From the NCBI GenBank assembly GCA_900754955.1, contig CAAEEV010000211.1:1-11479 (forward strand): DNA of 11,479 nucleotides, in the 5' to 3' direction. This stretch comes from Eggerthellaceae bacterium (GTDB lineage: Bacteria; Actinomycetota; Coriobacteriia; Coriobacteriales; Eggerthellaceae). The position numbers and the translations under genes were made by a program. Positions within the stretch are counted from its first letter, which is position 1. Each line of letters begins with the position of its first letter. Positions 3,138 to 8,152 of the stretch are shown in pieces. The notes under the pieces are model-generated. The model was not told where the DNA came from, made no database searches, and was given only the letters and a program-made list of their open reading frames with translations.

Positions 3138-3815
3138 TCACACGCTCCAGAGGTAGCCGACGCCGCGCACGGTCTCGAGGTGCTGCGCAAGCTCGGGGCC
3201 GAGCTTGGCGCGCACGCGACGCACGTGCACGTCGACCGTGCGGCTGCCGCCGTAGTAATCGAAGCCCCACACGCGCCGCAGGAGCGCGTCGCGCGAGTAG
3301 GTGCGGCCGGGGTGCGTGACGAGGAACGACAGCAGCGCGTACTCGAGGTACGTGAGGTCGAGCGGCTCGCCGGCGATCTTCACCTGGTAAGTCGCCAGGT
3401 TGATCGTCATGTTGTCGACGGTGATGAAGTCGCTCGTGGAGTTTTCGTTGCCCGGCCACAGCAGCTGGCGGATGCGCGCCGAGCACTCCTCGAACGACGC
3501 ACCGTGCACCACGAAGTCGGCCTTCACCTGGACGGGCAGGCGGAAGTCGGAGAGTTGGTCCTCGTTCACGATCACGAGCATGGCCGTCGAGCCGTCCTCC
3601 ACGAGCATCGACTCAACCTGGGACACGTTCTCGAGGGCGTCGCCGCGCGCCTCGTAGATCACGAGGTCGCGGTCGGGATGCTGTGCAAGGAGCTTCTTGA
3701 ACTGCATCGACGAACCCGGCGCCACGTTGACGTCGAGCGCGGAGAGCACCTGCTGGAACTTGTGCGCGTTGTCGAGGCTGTCGGCGATGAAGAGTACCGT
3801 TTTGCGCTGCTGCAT
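3138..3815 (-). CDS. OmpR/PhoB-type regulator with degenerate receiver, GlnR-like
   Basis: A 225-aa DNA-binding regulator. Residues 1-120 have the length and strand pattern of a response-regulator receiver, but the signature residues are missing: the usual acidic pair near the N-terminus is reduced to D12, the phospho-acceptor aspartate position appears to be E55 (LVIYEA), and the conserved lysine position reads VVHGA near 102-106. Residues 128-225 form a typical winged helix-turn-helix: LTYLEYALL, then SRDALLRRVWGF, the recognition helix around SRTVDVHVRRVRAKL, and the C-terminal hairpin VRGVGYLW. The start codon is one base after the glnA stop, so the two are translationally coupled and no strong independent Shine-Dalgarno is seen. 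Actinobacterial GlnR is also an OmpR-type regulator that works without conventional phosphorylation, so a role in nitrogen control is a reasonable inference. Orthology to GlnR is not shown. Confidence 0.85.
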   Translation of the reverse strand: MQQRKTVLFIADSLDNAHKFQQVLSALDVNVAPGSSMQFKKLLAQHPDRDLVIYEARGDALENVSQVESMLVEDGSTAMLVIVNEDQLSDFRLPVQVKADFVVHGASFEECSARIRQLLWPGNENSTSDFITVDNMTINLATYQVKIAGEPLDLTYLEYALLSFLVTHPGRTYSRDALLRRVWGFDYYGGSRTVDVHVRRVRAKLGPELAQHLETVRGVGYLWSV

Positions 3816-3816
3816 G

Positions 3817-5160
3817 TTACAACACCGCCAAATGACGTTCGAGCTCCCACGGCGTCACAACGCCCTGGTACTCGTTCCACTCCGCCCGCTTCGCCTTCAC
3901 GAGGTACGTGTGGATGTGCTCGCCGAGCGTCTCGCGCATGAGCTTGCTCCCGGCGAACAGCTCCACCGCCTCGCCGAGCGTCTCGGGCAACGTGCGGATG
4001 CCGCGGTCGCGCAGCTCCTGACGCGAGAGGTTGAACAGGTCCTGATCCTCAGTCGGCGGCTGGAGCTCGAGCTCCTCCTCGATGCCCGCCAGACCAGCTG
4101 CGAGCATGACGGCGAACGCAAGGTAGGGGTTCGCCGCCGCATCGGGGCTGCGCAGCTCCACGCGGCATGCCTCCTCGCGGCTGGGACGGTATCCCGGCAC
4201 GCGCACGAGCGTGGCGCGGTTGTGCTTCGCCCACGAGATGAACGTCGGCGCCTCGCTGCCGCTCGTGAGGCGCTTGTACGAATTCACGTACTGGTTCGTG
4301 ACGAGGCAGAACTCGGGCGCGTACTTGAGCAGGCCCGCGATGTAGTGCTTGGCGATGTCGGAGAGGTTGTAGCCCCACGGGTCGTCCTCGTCGAAGAAGG
4401 CGTTGTTGCCGTCGAGGTCGAAGAGACTCTGGTGCACGTGCATGCCGCTGCCCGGCGCATCCGCGAGCGGCTTGGGCATGAACGATGCGTACACGCCGTG
4501 CTTGAGCGCGATCTCCTTCACGACGAGCTTGTAGGTCATGACCGCATCGGCCATCGAGAGCGCATCGGCGTAGCGCAGGTCGATCTCGTGCTGCGAGGGG
4601 CCCATCTCGTGATGGGAGTACTCCACGGGAATGCCCATCTTCTCGAGCGTGAGCACGGTGTCGCGGCGCAGATCGCTCGCCGAGTCGAGCGAGGTGAGGT
4701 CGAAGTAGCTGCCGCGGTCGAGCACCTCGGTGCCCTCGGCGCTCTTGAAGTAGAAGAACTCGAGCTCGGGGCCCACGTTGTAGTTGAAGCCCGCGTCGGT
4801 CGCCTTCTGCACCACACGCTCGAGCACGTGGCGCGGGTCGCCCTCGAACGGCGTGCCGTCGGGCATCTTGATGTCGCAGAACATGCGCCCCACCGCGTTG
4901 GACTCGGGGCGCCACGGCAGCACCTGGAACGTGGAGGGGTCGGGATACGCGAGCATGTCGGACTCCTGGCGCTTCGAGAAACCCTCGATGCAGCTGCCGT
5001 CGAAGCCCATGCCGTCGGCGAAGGCCCCGTAGAGCTCGTTGGGCACCACGGCGAACGATTTCATGTTCCCGAGCACGTCGGTGAACCAGAAGCGCACGAA
5101 GTGCACGTCACGGCTCTTGACCGTTTTGAGAACGAAATCCTGCTGCGGGTTGGCAACCAT
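3817..5160 (-). CDS. glnA: Glutamine synthetase, type I
   Basis: This 447-aa enzyme makes glutamine from glutamate, ammonia and ATP as a cytoplasmic dodecamer. Visible family features are the D54 loop (GFDGSCIEGF, 52-61), metal ligands in GPELEF (130-135) and HHEMGPSQHEIDL (183-195), GSGMHVHQS (237-245) with the active-site histidine, the Glu flap at E303 (GSEAP), and RVELRSPD at 333-340. The length of about 447 and the absence of the adenylylation-site region of the longer enterobacterial type suggest the GSI-alpha group, which is controlled by feedback rather than adenylylation. In the segment after IEGF, lysine K63 appears to sit where the Bacillus enzyme has feedback-sensing arginine R62; this alignment is by eye. 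A perfect AGGAGG lies 6 bases before the ATG and a consensus -10 box lies upstream. The stop is one base before the regulator start. Confidence 0.97.
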   Translation of the reverse strand: MVANPQQDFVLKTVKSRDVHFVRFWFTDVLGNMKSFAVVPNELYGAFADGMGFDGSCIEGFSKRQESDMLAYPDPSTFQVLPWRPESNAVGRMFCDIKMPDGTPFEGDPRHVLERVVQKATDAGFNYNVGPELEFFYFKSAEGTEVLDRGSYFDLTSLDSASDLRRDTVLTLEKMGIPVEYSHHEMGPSQHEIDLRYADALSMADAVMTYKLVVKEIALKHGVYASFMPKPLADAPGSGMHVHQSLFDLDGNNAFFDEDDPWGYNLSDIAKHYIAGLLKYAPEFCLVTNQYVNSYKRLTSGSEAPTFISWAKHNRATLVRVPGYRPSREEACRVELRSPDAAANPYLAFAVMLAAGLAGIEEELELQPPTEDQDLFNLSRQELRDRGIRTLPETLGEAVELFAGSKLMRETLGEHIHTYLVKAKRAEWNEYQGVVTPWELERHLAVL

Positions 5161-5198: not shown

Positions 5199-5239
5199 TC
5201 GTCACGTGTTTCGGCAGCGTTAACGGATGCCTCCCCCTG

Positions 5240-5273
5240 AAAACAAAACGACCCGCCCCGAAGGGCGGGTCGT
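5240..5273 (-). terminator. Intrinsic terminator of rpmE
   Basis: A perfect 11-bp stem (5248-5258 with 5263-5273) closes on a TTCG loop in the minus-strand transcript and is followed by TTTTGTTTT. This is a textbook rho-independent terminator about 30 bases after the rpmE stop codon. Confidence 0.93.
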
Positions 5274-5304
5274 CGACCGAACGGCGTAAACGCGCGATGC
5301 GGCT

Positions 5305-5772
5305 TTAGGCCTCGGCGTTCTCCTCGGCAGCCGGCTCAGCGGTCTCAGCCTCGGCAACCTCGGCGGTCTCCTCGACGGCCTCAGCAGCGGCGGCCTCAGC
5401 GGCAGCAGCCTCAGCCTCGGCCTTCTTGGCGGCCTCAGCCTCGAACTTCGCCTTGCGCTCGGCCTTAGCGGCGGCCTTCGCCTCGCGTTCGGCCTTCTTG
5501 GCGGCCTCGAGCTCGGCGGCCTTCGCAGCCTTCGCGGCCTTCTTGGCTGCCTCACGCTCAGCGACCTTCTCCTTGGCGGAGCCGAAACGATCGGCGAAGC
5601 GCTGGACGCGTCCGCCGGTGTCGATCAGCTTCTGGGTGCCGGTGTAGAACGGATGGCACTTGTTGCAGATGTCGATCTTGAGCTCGGGCTTCGTGGAGCG
5701 CGTGACAAACGTGTTGCCGCAGCTGCACTTCACGGTGCACTCGACGTAATCCGGATGGATGCCTTGCTTCAT
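5305..5772 (-). CDS. rpmE: 50S ribosomal protein L31 with long Ala/Lys/Glu-rich tail
   Basis: Residues 1-68 are a standard zinc-containing (C+) L31: IHPDY near the start, CSC at 16-18, [10 protein letters not shown] at 36-45 and the GGRVQRF segment. C16, C18, C36 and C39 are the presumed zinc ligands. L31 normally ends near residue 70, but this protein runs to 155. Residues 69-155 are almost entirely Ala, Lys, Glu and Arg, basic up to about residue 118 and acidic after it, predicted helical or coiled-coil and of low complexity. The start at 5772 is supported by AGAGGAG 8-10 bases upstream and by homology; longer upstream frames are not credible because they would cross the leader repeats. The gene has its own promoter, a twin-hairpin leader and a strong terminator, so it is monocistronic. 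Confidence 0.95.
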
Positions 5773-5795
5773 GGGTTCTCTCCTCTTGGGTTCGT

Positions 5796-5842
5796 CCTTG
5801 GTTTCCGACCAAGGAAATTCATGCCTTGGTTTCCGACCAAGG
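5796..5842 (-). promoter_or_regulatory. Twin identical hairpins in the rpmE leader
   Basis: CCTTGGTTTCCGACCAAGG occurs at 5796-5814 and again, base for base, at 5824-5842, separated by 9 bases. Each copy is itself an inverted repeat: a perfect 7-bp stem CCTTGGT/ACCAAGG around a 5-base loop that reads CGGAA in the minus-strand RNA. Both copies lie between the predicted start of transcription (about 5852) and the ribosome binding site, so the rpmE mRNA would begin with two consecutive identical hairpins. An RNA site for autoregulation by L31 is the leading idea: L31 leader motifs, including one proposed for Coriobacteria, have been described by comparative genomics, but I cannot test the match. 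A tandem DNA operator is the alternative. Confidence 0.75.
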
Positions 5843-5858
5843 CGAGACAAGCTTATCT

Positions 5859-5886
5859 ATAATAGCATGCCGCTTTTCCAATGCAA
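5859..5886 (-). promoter_or_regulatory. rpmE promoter
   Basis: On the minus strand TTGCAT (5881-5886) is separated by 16 bases from TATTAT (5859-5864). The -10 matches five of six consensus positions; the -35 matches only TTG. Transcription would start near 5852, just before the first hairpin of the leader. Confidence 0.5.
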
Positions 5887-5981
5887 GAGCTGTTTTACAG
5901 AAAGACGCCTGTTCAGCGCTTTTCGCTGCGCGGTGCACTGCGTGGTGCAACCCCGCGAACGCCGAACGTCGCTTCGGGCAC

Positions 5982-6019
5982 AAAAAACGGGCAGGAGGGA
6001 GATCCCGTCCTGCCCGTTT
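5982..6019 (-). terminator. Intrinsic terminator of the desulfoferrodoxin gene
   Basis: A long stem with arms AACGGGCAGGA (5986-5996) and TCCTGCCCGTT (6008-6018) is followed on the minus strand by TTTTTT. It lies about 80 bases after the dfx stop and is a strong rho-independent terminator. The opposite strand also has a short TTT after the stem, but no plus-strand gene needs it. Confidence 0.92.
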
Positions 6020-6099
6020 CAGGTGCGCCGCCCTCGTCGTCTCGCAGGCTCCTTTTGCGCAGCCCGCGCGCGGCGCACCCCATCAGCTGAAACGCAGCC

Positions 6100-6480
6100 C
6101 TACAGCTTGGCGACCCAGAGGCCGTGGAGGTTGCAGTGCTCGTACACCGCCACCGGAGCGTCGCCCTCGGCGACGACGAACTCGGCCTTCGGAGCGTCGG
6201 CCGCCGTCAGCGGGGCGACCTGGTAGCCCTTCTCGGTCACGAGGCAGATGAACTGGATGAGGTGCTCCTCGGTCATCGGGTGCTCGACGCTGCCCACGAC
6301 GACGCTCACCTTGTTGCCGTCGACGGTCACGGCCGGCACGTGCTTCTCAACTGCCGCGTCAACGGAGCCAGCGACGAGCTCGGTCATCTTCTCACCGCAG
6401 CACACCATCGGAACGCCCGCGTCAACGACCTTGAGAGCGATGTTGCCGCAGTGCTCGCACTTGTAGAACTTGACCTCCAT
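6100..6480 (-). CDS. dfx: Desulfoferrodoxin (superoxide reductase)
   Basis: This 126-aa enzyme reduces superoxide to hydrogen peroxide without releasing oxygen, which protects anaerobes. The N-terminal desulforedoxin-like domain (1-36) has the four iron-binding cysteines C8, C11, C27 and C28 (center I). The catalytic center II is complete: the EKH motif with E46 and H47, H67 in VEHPM, H73 in TEEH, and C116 plus H119 in the C-terminal EHCNLHGLW. The length matches two-iron desulfoferrodoxin. I chose the start MEVKFYKCEHCG because it is the family's usual N-terminus and has an AGAGGGG site 6 bases upstream; an in-frame ATG at 6522 lacks one. The gene is a single unit with its own leader and terminator. 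Electron donors such as rubredoxin are not encoded in the window. Confidence 0.97.
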   Translation of the reverse strand: MEVKFYKCEHCGNIALKVVDAGVPMVCCGEKMTELVAGSVDAAVEKHVPAVTVDGNKVSVVVGSVEHPMTEEHLIQFICLVTEKGYQVAPLTAADAPKAEFVVAEGDAPVAVYEHCNLHGLWVAKL

Positions 6481-6510
6481 GGAAAACCCCTCTTTCATGA
6501 TCGGGATGAA

Positions 6511-6530
6511 GCCGCCTCTCATCAGGCGGC
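6511..6530 (-). promoter_or_regulatory. Hairpin in the dfx leader
   Basis: A perfect 7-bp inverted repeat, GCCGCCT and AGGCGGC, with a 6-base loop lies 30 bases before the dfx start codon. It has no T-tract on either strand. If transcription starts after the TACAAT box at 6539-6544, this hairpin sits at the extreme 5' end of the mRNA, where it could stabilise the message or act as a binding site. Confidence 0.5.
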
Positions 6531-6538
6531 GTATCGCT

Positions 6539-6544
6539 ATTGTA
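6539..6544 (-). promoter_or_regulatory. Candidate dfx -10 box
   Basis: TACAAT on the minus strand matches five of six -10 positions. No -35 hexamer matches well at 16-18 bases upstream, so an activator-dependent promoter or a different start further upstream in the AT-rich stretch near 6610-6640 is possible. Confidence 0.35.
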
Positions 6545-6622
6545 CGTTCGTATGCAACGCCATGCGCGAAGGGAAGCGCTTATTCTCCGTTTCCCCATCG
6601 CAGGGCGTGGCTATATGTTACT

Positions 6623-6638
6623 AAATTAGAATCAATTT
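6623..6638. promoter_or_regulatory. AT-rich interrupted palindrome between lgt and dfx
   Basis: AAATT and AATTT flank six bases within an AT-rich island (about 6612-6638) that contrasts with the GC-rich surroundings. It lies in the intergenic region upstream of dfx and could be an operator, for example for a metal- or peroxide-sensing repressor. The match to any known box is not established. Confidence 0.3.
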
Positions 6639-6682
6639 CGGCATTCGTTCAGGCGAGCGGTCGAAAAGGCAGGGCAGAACGA

Positions 6683-6706
6683 GCCTGCAAGATGGGCCTG
6701 CAAGAT
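6683..6706. repeat. 11-bp tandem direct repeat at the lgt 3' end
   Basis: GCCTGCAAGAT occurs at 6683-6693 and 6696-6706 with a 13-bp period. The right copy reaches the last base of the lgt stop codon (6706-6708 on the plus strand). It looks like a small slippage duplication just after the gene and does not change the reading frame. Confidence 0.7.
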
Positions 6707-7551
6707 CAGCGCTCGGATGCGGGCCGCTCCCCCGCTGCCGCGACGCCCTGCTGCGGCAGCCTCTTCCGCAGCGCGTACACAAGCACCACCACGCCCACGA
6801 TGACGAGCGGCACCGAGAGCAGCTGTCCCATCGTGAGCCAGCCGCCCCAGAGGTAGCCGAGCTGCACGTCGGGCTCGCGCACGAACTCGATGAGGAAGCG
6901 GAACGTGCCGTACATGATGAGGAAGATGCCGAGGAACGTCCCCCGCGGACGCGGCGGCACCTTCCGCGACAGCGCGAAGAGCACCGCGAAGATGATGATG
7001 CCCTCGAGCATCGCCTCGTAGAGCTGGGACGGATGACGCGGCATCATGCCCGCCGCGCCGCCGAACACCACGCCCCACGGCGCGTCGGTGGGCGCACCCC
7101 ACAGCTCGCCGTTGATGAAGTTCGCGCAGCGGCCGAAGAACAGGCCCGCCGGCGCCGCGATACAGCCGAGGTCGGCGAGCGTGAGATACGGGATGTGCGT
7201 GAGCTTCGCGGCAACGATGCCCGCCACGAGCGCACCGATGAGACCGCCGTGGAAGCTCATGCCGCCGTGGTTCGTCGCGAAGATCTCGAGCGGATGGCTC
7301 AGGTAGTAGCCGTCTCCGTAGAAGAGCACGTAGCCGGCGCGCGCGCCGACGATGATGCCGATGATCACACACACCATGATGGTGAGCAGCGAATCGACGT
7401 CCACGCTCACCTTCCACCGCCGCGCCGTACGCGCGATGATGAAGGCGGCAAGCAGGAATCCGAGTACGTAGGCCACGCCGTACCAGCGTACGGTGAGGGG
7501 TCCGAGGGAGAACAGCACCGGGTCGATGCTGTGGTATATATCGTTGAGCAT
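6706..7551 (-). CDS. lgt: Prolipoprotein diacylglyceryl transferase
   Basis: This 281-aa integral membrane enzyme transfers diacylglycerol from phosphatidylglycerol to the lipobox cysteine of prolipoproteins, the first step of lipoprotein maturation. Several hydrophobic segments are visible (about 17-40, 55-78, 98-116, 127-142, 180-196, 206-222 and 238-261). Family motifs are present: RWYG with Y24, MSFHGG with H101, the signature GRCANFINGELWG with R141 and N144, and EFVREPD with R225. The glycine usual before N144 is alanine here, a mild change. The length is typical, with a short charged tail. The start is 5 bases past the stop of the zinc-ribbon gene and no strong Shine-Dalgarno precedes it (GTGGAT at best), so translation is probably coupled to that gene. 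Confidence 0.96.
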   Translation of the reverse strand: MLNDIYHSIDPVLFSLGPLTVRWYGVAYVLGFLLAAFIIARTARRWKVSVDVDSLLTIMVCVIIGIIVGARAGYVLFYGDGYYLSHPLEIFATNHGGMSFHGGLIGALVAGIVAAKLTHIPYLTLADLGCIAAPAGLFFGRCANFINGELWGAPTDAPWGVVFGGAAGMMPRHPSQLYEAMLEGIIIFAVLFALSRKVPPRPRGTFLGIFLIMYGTFRFLIEFVREPDVQLGYLWGGWLTMGQLLSVPLVIVGVVVLVYALRKRLPQQGVAAAGERPASER

Positions 7552-7556
7552 ACGGG

Positions 7557-7775
7557 TTATCCACGCCCCATTCCGGCACCGATCTCAATGGCGGCGAACG
7601 CCACCTCTTCGCGCAAGTCGTCAGGGATCGGCTGAAGCGACGAGACGCGGGTGCCGCAGTGCGGGCAGTACAGGGCGAACAGAGCGAGGTCGGCGCGCAG
7701 AACCATCATCGACTCGTAGTCGTGCACGTCGAGATCTTGCGCATTGCATGACGGACACGCCAGCGCACGTGTCAT
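7557..7775 (-). CDS. Small double-CxxC zinc-ribbon protein
   Basis: A 72-aa protein of unknown function. It has two CxxC pairs, C7/C10 (CPSC) and C37/C40 (CPHCG), separated by 26 residues, the layout of a zinc ribbon. The segment between is hydrophobic and helix-forming (MMVLRADLALFALY). The tail (about 50-72) is acidic and then Gly-rich. No membrane segment or signal peptide is evident, so it is probably cytoplasmic. I chose the start at 7775 because AAAGGGG lies about 6 bases upstream; an in-frame ATG at 7829 would add 18 residues but has no ribosome binding site. It ends 5 bases before lgt, suggesting co-transcription and coupling. The function is unknown; a zinc-binding accessory or nucleic-acid-binding role is possible. 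Confidence 0.75.
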   Translation of the reverse strand: MTRALACPSCNAQDLDVHDYESMMVLRADLALFALYCPHCGTRVSSLQPIPDDLREEVAFAAIEIGAGMGRG

Positions 7776-7828
7776 AGAGCACCCCTTTCCGCAGGCGGCA
7801 TCGCACGATCCCCATGGTAGCACAAGCA

Positions 7829-7846
7829 TCCCGCGCGCATGCGGGA
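7829..7846 (-). terminator. Short GC hairpin between the two small cysteine-rich genes
   Basis: A 6-bp inverted repeat, TCCCGC and GCGGGA, with a 6-base loop lies 15 bases after the stop of the 96-aa gene. No T-tract follows, so termination is doubtful and the two small genes could be co-transcribed. Confidence 0.25.
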
Positions 7847-7861
7847 GCCGCCGCGCATCCG

Positions 7862-8152
7862 CTAGAGCAGGAAGCGGTTGGGGTTGCCCTGGCGCTTGAA
7901 GCCAGCGGGGCGCTCGGCCATCGACGGGCCGTAGGTGAGGAAGTGCTCGCAGAAGCGGCAGATCTCCTTGACAGCGGCGTCGTAGTCGCGGTCGGGGTTG
8001 AGCAGCAGGTCGAAATCGTCACACACCACGTGCGTCTTGCGTCCGCAGGCGGCGAAGTGGCAGTCGGCCGGGCACGGCTCGCCCGGGATGTTGTGGGGGC
8101 AGCGTCCCCTCATCTCCTCGTCGCATCCGCGGCGCTCCCAGCACTTTTCCAT
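7862..8152 (-). CDS. Cysteine-rich protein with CW-type motif
   Basis: A 96-aa protein with nine cysteines (C4, C10, C18, C27, C31, C36, C44, C65, C68). The N-terminus MEKCWERRGC followed by RCP and PCPADC resembles the CWE-x3-C...CP pattern of small two-CW-type proteins found in anaerobes, some of which accompany redox or Fe-S systems; the family assignment is by eye. The pair C65xxC68 could bind metal with C44 or the N-terminal group. There is no signal peptide or membrane segment. The start is firm: AAGGGAGG precedes the ATG by about 6 bases. The gene lies directly behind the terminator of the NifU-like gene, so its transcription depends on readthrough or a promoter not recognised here. 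A role binding Zn or an Fe-S cluster is inference only. Confidence 0.8.
   Translation of the reverse strand: MEKCWERRGCDEEMRGRCPHNIPGEPCPADCHFAACGRKTHVVCDDFDLLLNPDRDYDAAVKEICRFCEHFLTYGPSMAERPAGFKRQGNPNRFLL

Follow-up and report, generated by a model that had tools for sequence, protein, structure and literature searches.

The window, an 11,479-nt stretch of Eggerthellaceae DNA, carries two identical hairpins upstream of the ribosomal protein L31 gene (rpmE), and the evidence supports their assignment as a doubled form of a known L31 leader family, L31-Coriobacteria (RF03128). Read from its sequence, the doubled leader in the rpmE mRNA probably serves a putative translational autorepression by L31, with the distal copy as a second site; here we infer L31 as the ligand, repression at the level of translation and the role of the second copy. 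What is new is the doubled architecture of an RF03128-type leader, which is absent from the main text of the published description of the family.

A sequence-only reading of this DNA had described a 19-base inverted repeat present twice without a mismatch, 9 bases apart, and this is confirmed. The two identical 19-nt copies occupy 5796-5814 and 5824-5842 (CCTTGGTTTCCGACCAAGG on the plus strand), 28 nt from start to start with a gap of 9 nt, and each reads CCUUGGU-CGGAA-ACCAAGG on the minus (coding) strand. Both stems reach 8 bp, with an outer pair that differs between them (G-C in the distal copy, U-A in the proximal one). The features of the region, in the direction of transcription, are as follows.

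5881..5886, minus strand: possible -35 element TTGCAT, weak, called by eye, 16 nt from the -10 element
5859..5867, minus strand: probable extended -10 element TGCTATTAT, called by eye in the window and relatives
5844..5852, minus strand: 5' segment GCTTGTCTC, called by eye; presumed transcription start near 5852, from the position of the -10 element
5823..5843, minus strand: distal hairpin, 8 bp, loop CGGAA; RF03128 match 5843-5818
5816..5822, minus strand: spacer, 7 nt between the 8-bp stems (9 nt between the 19-mers)
5795..5815, minus strand: proximal hairpin, 8 bp, loop CGGAA; RF03128 match 5815-5780
5780..5784, minus strand: Shine-Dalgarno sequence AGGAG, 7 nt 5' of the start codon and inside the RF03128 match
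5305..5772, minus strand: rpmE, encoding L31 (155 aa), ATG at 5772; PF01197, 113.7 bits, residues 1-64
5247..5274, minus strand: terminator-like hairpin 3' of rpmE, 12 pairs, 9 of them G-C, T-rich tail

The same reading had placed the repeats between the predicted transcription start and the ribosome binding site of rpmE; they lie 3' of the probable extended -10 element and 5' of the Shine-Dalgarno sequence. By eye, TGnTAnnAT-like elements are found in relatives at an equal distance 5' of the hairpin; a consensus promoter scan of 5200-6150 returned no promoter-like site. Many relatives (upstream regions L001-L025) share a GGCTTGTC/GGCTGTC-like stretch that follows the presumed start and precedes the first hairpin.

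The product of rpmE also matches TIGR00105 (113 bits), is an L31 of type A with cysteines CSC..CNKC, and is 91% identical over 70 residues to that of Adlercreutzia sp. ZJ473. Past the Pfam domain it has an Ala/Lys/Glu-rich C-terminal extension of ~90 residues, and most coriobacterial L31 frames listed are similarly long, often 130-170 aa. A desulfoferrodoxin gene (6100-6522, minus strand; PF01880 and PF06397) lies 5' of rpmE. Elsewhere in the window, a regulator with a Trans_reg_C match and a sub-threshold GlnR_1st match adjoins glutamine synthetase (3138-3815 and 3817-5160, minus strand), and the two are likely a nitrogen-control pair. Two small cysteine-rich frames (7557-7829 and 7862-8152, minus strand; 90 and 96 aa) have no Pfam or NCBIfam match, and a comparison of 5300-7600 with a phage collection gave no match.

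The repeat is not explained by chance: when the 327-nt intergenic region was shuffled 20,000 times at mononucleotide level, no shuffle gave an identical repeated hairpin of 7 bp with a 5-nt loop, and 443 gave at least one perfect hairpin of this kind. Both hairpins form in the predicted ensemble, with mid-stem pair probabilities of 0.945 and 0.944, and the 95 nt of leader and gene start give z = -2.43, a fold equalled or bettered by 6 of 200 shuffles. Allowing up to one mismatch, the window contains no other site for the 11-nt hairpin core.

Autoregulation through an L31 leader RNA, possibly of the coriobacterial type, had been put forward as the simplest hypothesis, along with an Rfam scan and an alignment of Coriobacteriia rpmE upstream regions as ways to check it. 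Both analyses support the assignment to an L31 leader of that type, with binding by L31 itself a prediction. In a whole-library Rfam scan the proximal copy scored 35.3 bits with RF03128 (E 0.015) against a gathering score of 33, and the alignment shows covarying stems in both copies. Both hairpins lie 5' of the L31 gene, where an L31 leader is placed. The distal copy scored 28.6 bits, below the gathering score, over model positions 1-27. Its match stops short of the part of the model that holds the Shine-Dalgarno sequence, which makes it another hairpin of this type and not a full second leader.

The family was described by Eckert and Weinberg (2020; PMC7247131), in whose account each of the five L31 motifs is a single hairpin. 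The main text of that paper contains no occurrence of 'tandem' or 'two copies', and it leaves open whether L31 binds the L31 motifs. The window shares with RF03128 the stem, the CGGAA loop, the position before rpmE, the Shine-Dalgarno sequence in the model and, to judge from its L31, the lineage, but it has two hairpins, the distal one below the Rfam cut-off, where the form published in that text has one. Because the model includes the Shine-Dalgarno sequence and distal copies score under the cut-off, doubled leaders are easily overlooked.

The family is widespread in the class. RF03128 is matched over cut-off in 264 of 396 Coriobacteriia genomes and at E <= 2.5 in 351, with no match in 45; among 14 control genomes, 3 match at E <= 2.5 and none over cut-off. 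A more thorough search of 26 genomes found exactly one site over cut-off in 19 and a second in none. The tandem arrangement was found in 51 of the 396 genomes with a strict pattern and in 90 with a relaxed one, or 89 after exclusion of G143, which has a different repeat and in which no L31 was found; a reversed-pattern control of the relaxed search gave one match (G278). In the family to which genome G127 belongs, all 59 genomes have an RF03128 match, over cut-off in 44, and 55 have two matches 7-10 nt apart (counted from tables). Twelve of these tandem genomes are among the 396 but were missed by the relaxed pattern, bringing the tandem count to at least 101.

Tandem leaders occur in Eggerthellaceae (Adlercreutzia; L001, L002, L004) and in Atopobiaceae (Olsenella, Thermophilibacter and Parafannyhessea; L013, L018, L019, L020, L022). 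Carriers of a single hairpin include Slackia, Gordonibacter, Paraeggerthella, Adlercreutzia sp. ZJ141 and Olsenella porci. Among the Eggerthellaceae leaders examined, single hairpins are in the majority, indicating that the second is dispensable, and the L31 nearest to that of the window, at 95% identity, comes from a single-hairpin genome (L105). Mapped onto an L31 tree, the tandem label takes at least 13 changes, 5 of them forced by well-supported branches (shuffled mean 36.8), on a tree whose 66 columns, 115 rows and few supported forks make it a weak basis for gains and losses. As far as the sequences tell, the doubling is neither unique nor one-off, and copies appear to come and go. Two single-hairpin leaders (L021, L023) have GC-rich, unlike sequence at the position of their relatives' distal hairpin.

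The identity of the two copies had been taken as a sign of selection or recent duplication. Recent duplication is only partly right: doubling is common in the class, the copies are mostly unequal, and the tree for gains and losses is weak. Two identical 19-mers were found in just 6 of the 75 tandem leaders examined, the window counted in, and their identity in the window is largely the local clade consensus.

Variation among leaders was followed in a tandem-enriched set of 150 distinct sequences, of which 75 have two hairpins, 67 one and 8 none by the hairpin finder, proportions that are not frequency estimates. The set leaves out 54 non-coriobacterial loci, two loci with no readable L31 start (L144 and L164) and identical leaders, and keeps L203 with only 80 nt upstream. 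The 8-bp stems of the tandems are separated by 4-13 nt, with 7-9 nt in 56 of 75, and the Shine-Dalgarno sequence begins 4-12 nt past the proximal stem. The canonical tip GGUCGGAAACC is present in 57 of the 67 single-hairpin leaders; tandems have canonical tips in both copies in 28 cases, in the proximal copy only in 25 and in the distal copy only in 22. One tip is thus non-canonical in 47 of 75 tandem leaders, so the second copy may face weaker selection. A rule of 'at least one canonical tip' is true of 75/75 tandems and was set aside as independent evidence, since some loci were fetched with a pattern demanding a canonical proximal tip. The most variable position of the loop is its fourth base, which can be A, U, C or G. 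The proximal loop is CGGUA or CGGCA in many G127-family leaders, and Olsenella-type leaders have a distal loop shortened by one base to CGGA.

Of the 8 leaders in which the finder saw no hairpin, seven retain a variant one that contains GGAAACC, its tip being GUAUGGAAACC in L014, L194, L199, L203, L215 and L220 and GCACGGAAACC in L233. These keep the 3' half and have lost the apical pairs of the standard hairpin, and 6 of the 7 group near the Eggerthella-type L31 on the weak tree. The eighth, L218 (G252), is an rpmE leader with no recognisable L31 hairpin.

The stems vary in a way that points to RNA. Over 59 distinct hairpins, 450 of 472 cells are paired and 77 are double-change cells, against maxima of 393 and 35 in 1000 shuffles that ignore relatedness. 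Tested separately, again with relatedness ignored, the distal copies with a 5-nt loop are paired in 109 of 112 cells, where 1000 shuffles reach a mean of 96.0 and a maximum of 102, and show 14 double-change cells (shuffle maximum 9), and the proximal copies have 207 of 216 paired (shuffle maximum 194) and 23 double-change (maximum 14 in 1000 shuffles). Five distinct distal copies with a 4-nt loop have 40 of 40 cells paired but say little, because shuffles also reach 40/40. At the tip, the closing U-A pair and the third pair G-C are present in 59 of 59 and the second pair is standard in 53 of 59; deviant tips change mostly in their 5' half, while GGAAACC stays.

These observations bear on the alternative offered by the sequence-only reading, a dimeric DNA-binding repressor with tandem operators. 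Two identical near-palindromes just 3' of a probable -10 element would suit it. Covariation of the stems in both copies, however, speaks for RNA and not for a DNA operator: changes in the stem compensate each other, G-U intermediates occur, and the asymmetric loop is preserved. Such an operator would have both half-sites conserved as sequence, and what is found is better conservation of the loop and 3' half, GGAAACC, than of the 5' half; the seven non-standard leaders keep GGAAACC with CCAAGG or CCAGGG although the 5' half of the tip has changed. Moreover, one hairpin is enough in most relatives examined, and the 19 genomes with an over-cut-off site have no second one. A conserved tip on compensating stems is more readily understood as RNA that a protein recognises than as a palindromic operator in DNA, and the repressor, disfavoured by the compensating stem changes and by a tip conservation unlike that of a symmetric operator, is in our judgement hardly credible.

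Strong stems near a 5' end could also act as stability or structural hairpins with no specific ligand. This we consider improbable, since the tip is conserved far beyond the needs of pairing, both in the single-hairpin leaders and in the invariant closing U-A pair.

Less probable still is a switch between two states, either by cross-pairing of the identical arms of the two copies or by a 5' end that masks the ribosome-binding site. For the window leader, the fourteen 19-mer pairs taken alone give -19.3 kcal/mol cross-paired and -19.4 kcal/mol as two hairpins, and the predicted fold does pair the 5' end with the Shine-Dalgarno region. With the flanking pairs included, however, the two hairpins dominate (probability about 0.945), and arms as alike as those of the window are rare among tandem leaders (6/75). 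A conserved cross-pairing switch was therefore rejected, being feasible in the window on short stems only. So was a conserved 5'-end clamp on the Shine-Dalgarno sequence, because real partners pair less well than swapped ones: pairing of the tandem 5' segment with the ribosome-binding region amounts to -5.08 kcal/mol, against -5.65 with swapped partners, and 100 of 100 permutations are as low.

Under the preferred reading, a doubled L31 leader, the rpmE mRNA would start near 5852 and each hairpin would display the tip on a covarying stem. L31 in excess over assembling ribosomes would bind the tip of one or both hairpins. As the proximal hairpin ends ~10 nt before the Shine-Dalgarno sequence, the bound protein would hinder 30S loading, and translation of rpmE would fall. 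The distal copy may be a second site that gives higher affinity or a sharper response, or it may be a spare; redundancy would agree with how often one of the two tips is no longer canonical. Transcription attenuation was considered and rejected, there being no terminator-like site between the hairpins and rpmE; a terminator scan gave minus-strand matches at 5274-5247, 6007-5992 and 5919-5905.

Gene content agrees with autogenous control. Of the 376 Coriobacteriia genomes in which L31 was found, 370 carry a single gene for it and six carry two, and all 89 tandem genomes have one each, which rules out a second hairpin serving an L31 paralogue. A paralogue/Zur switch of the E. coli type calls for a second, zinc-free L31 gene, which these 370 genomes do not have. 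A single L31 gene and no second over-cut-off site together favour autogenous control and disfavour the E. coli-type switch.

The conserved tip has a close counterpart in 23S rRNA. A search with the core GGTCGGAAACC of the 16S-23S-5S operon of Adlercreutzia faecimuris (G004) found a sole site on the sense strand with no more than one mismatch, GGACGGTCGGCAACCGTCC. This is a hairpin of 7 bp with the loop CGGCA, in which 1 of 11 tip bases differs from the leader. It aligns with the hairpin at 2299-2315 of the 2903-nt E. coli 23S gene, CCTGGTCGGACATCAGG, which we take, by name and E. coli numbering, to be helix 84. In the E. coli 23S rRNA, too, this is the pentaloop hairpin closest to the leader tip, with 2 mismatches. 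The leader tip and the helix 84 tip (GGUCGGCAACC) thus both have a pentaloop, are in equal register and are one base apart, the sole difference being the fourth loop base. Random tips matched any of 54 operon pentaloop hairpins as well in 139 of 20,000 trials and helix 84 itself in 5; letter-permuted tips did so in 248 and 30 of 20,000.

Helix 84 reads GGTYGGCAAYC in all 47 Coriobacteriia genomes in which it was found and is exactly GGTCGGCAACC in 39 of them. It was found in 17 of 80 genomes and in 31 of 80 (one of the 31 non-coriobacterial, some genomes searched in both); in the remainder the exact flanks or the rRNA were absent. Variation in the leader does not follow that in helix 84: G156 has helix 84 GGTTGGCAATC yet a canonical leader (L210), and G062 and G154 have a canonical helix 84 yet deviant leaders (L215, L199). 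By eye, no tip of this kind was seen in the other L31 leader families, and in Table 1 of PMC7247131 L31 stands without the asterisk for rRNA similarity. Mimicry of rRNA would produce a conserved tip in register with an rRNA hairpin, as is seen here. We propose helix 84 as a candidate rRNA counterpart of the L31-Coriobacteria leader tip; mimicry is plausible, at somewhat less than even chances.

The setting of helix 84 in the ribosome bears on the ligand. In the available texts, bL31 is anchored to 5S rRNA and uL5 (PMC7530986), uL5 contacts helix 84 (PMC10531944), and helix 84 is described as moving together with uL5 and bL31 in the central protuberance, with 5S rRNA. The literature searched on bL31/L31 and helix 84, so far as its text was available, holds no statement of a direct contact between the two. 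A tip that copies helix 84 might have uL5 as its first ligand, alone or with bL31, the leader sensing free central-protuberance proteins and not just L31. These contacts, and the single near match of the tip in the G004 operon, speak for such a ligand. But the motif stands before rpmE, not the uL5 gene, in the 19 over-cut-off sites, and the protein that represses rpmE in E. coli is bL31 (PMC10931766, in the text available), and we hold uL5 as first ligand to be unlikely. We tentatively suggest, with a confidence similar to that for the mimicry itself, that two helix 84-like tips in series, as many lineages carry them, might form a two-site decoy in the mRNA, against which L31, with or without uL5, would count free central-protuberance sites and give a steeper feedback than a single site.

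L31 leaders are among the newest ribosomal-protein leaders. With a helix 84-like tip, and with close relatives that differ naturally in having one site or two, the questions of ligand and second site become directly testable: whether L31 (or uL5) recognises one RNA shape both on the ribosome and on the mRNA, and what benefit a second site brings.

A further comparison is with the rpmE operator of E. coli, where bL31 represses rpmE through a 5'UTR hairpin and the N-terminal segment of bL31, according to the available text of PMC10931766. That operator (Aseev et al. 2020, as cited in PMC10931766 and PMC9825181) is described as an irregular hairpin in which two internal bulges matter, and it is also targeted by an L31 paralogue under Zur control (PMC9825181). 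Autorepression by bL31 through a 5'UTR hairpin is the shared element, its coriobacterial counterpart being putative. In E. coli, as those texts describe it, there is one bulged hairpin and an L31 paralogue, whereas the tandem coriobacterial genomes have one L31 gene; because the hairpin is a different, bulged one, the E. coli mechanism does not transfer by homology. L31-Gammaproteobacteria (RF03157) and L31-Actinobacteria (RF03158) likewise share the gene and the presumed ligand but are different, bulged hairpins, and they were found in 7 of 17 non-coriobacterial loci scanned. The nearest parallel to the proposed mimicry is with the L20 and S15 leaders, described in PMC7247131 as resembling the rRNA site near their protein; the likeness of the coriobacterial L31 leader to helix 84 is proposed here, from comparison of the sequences.
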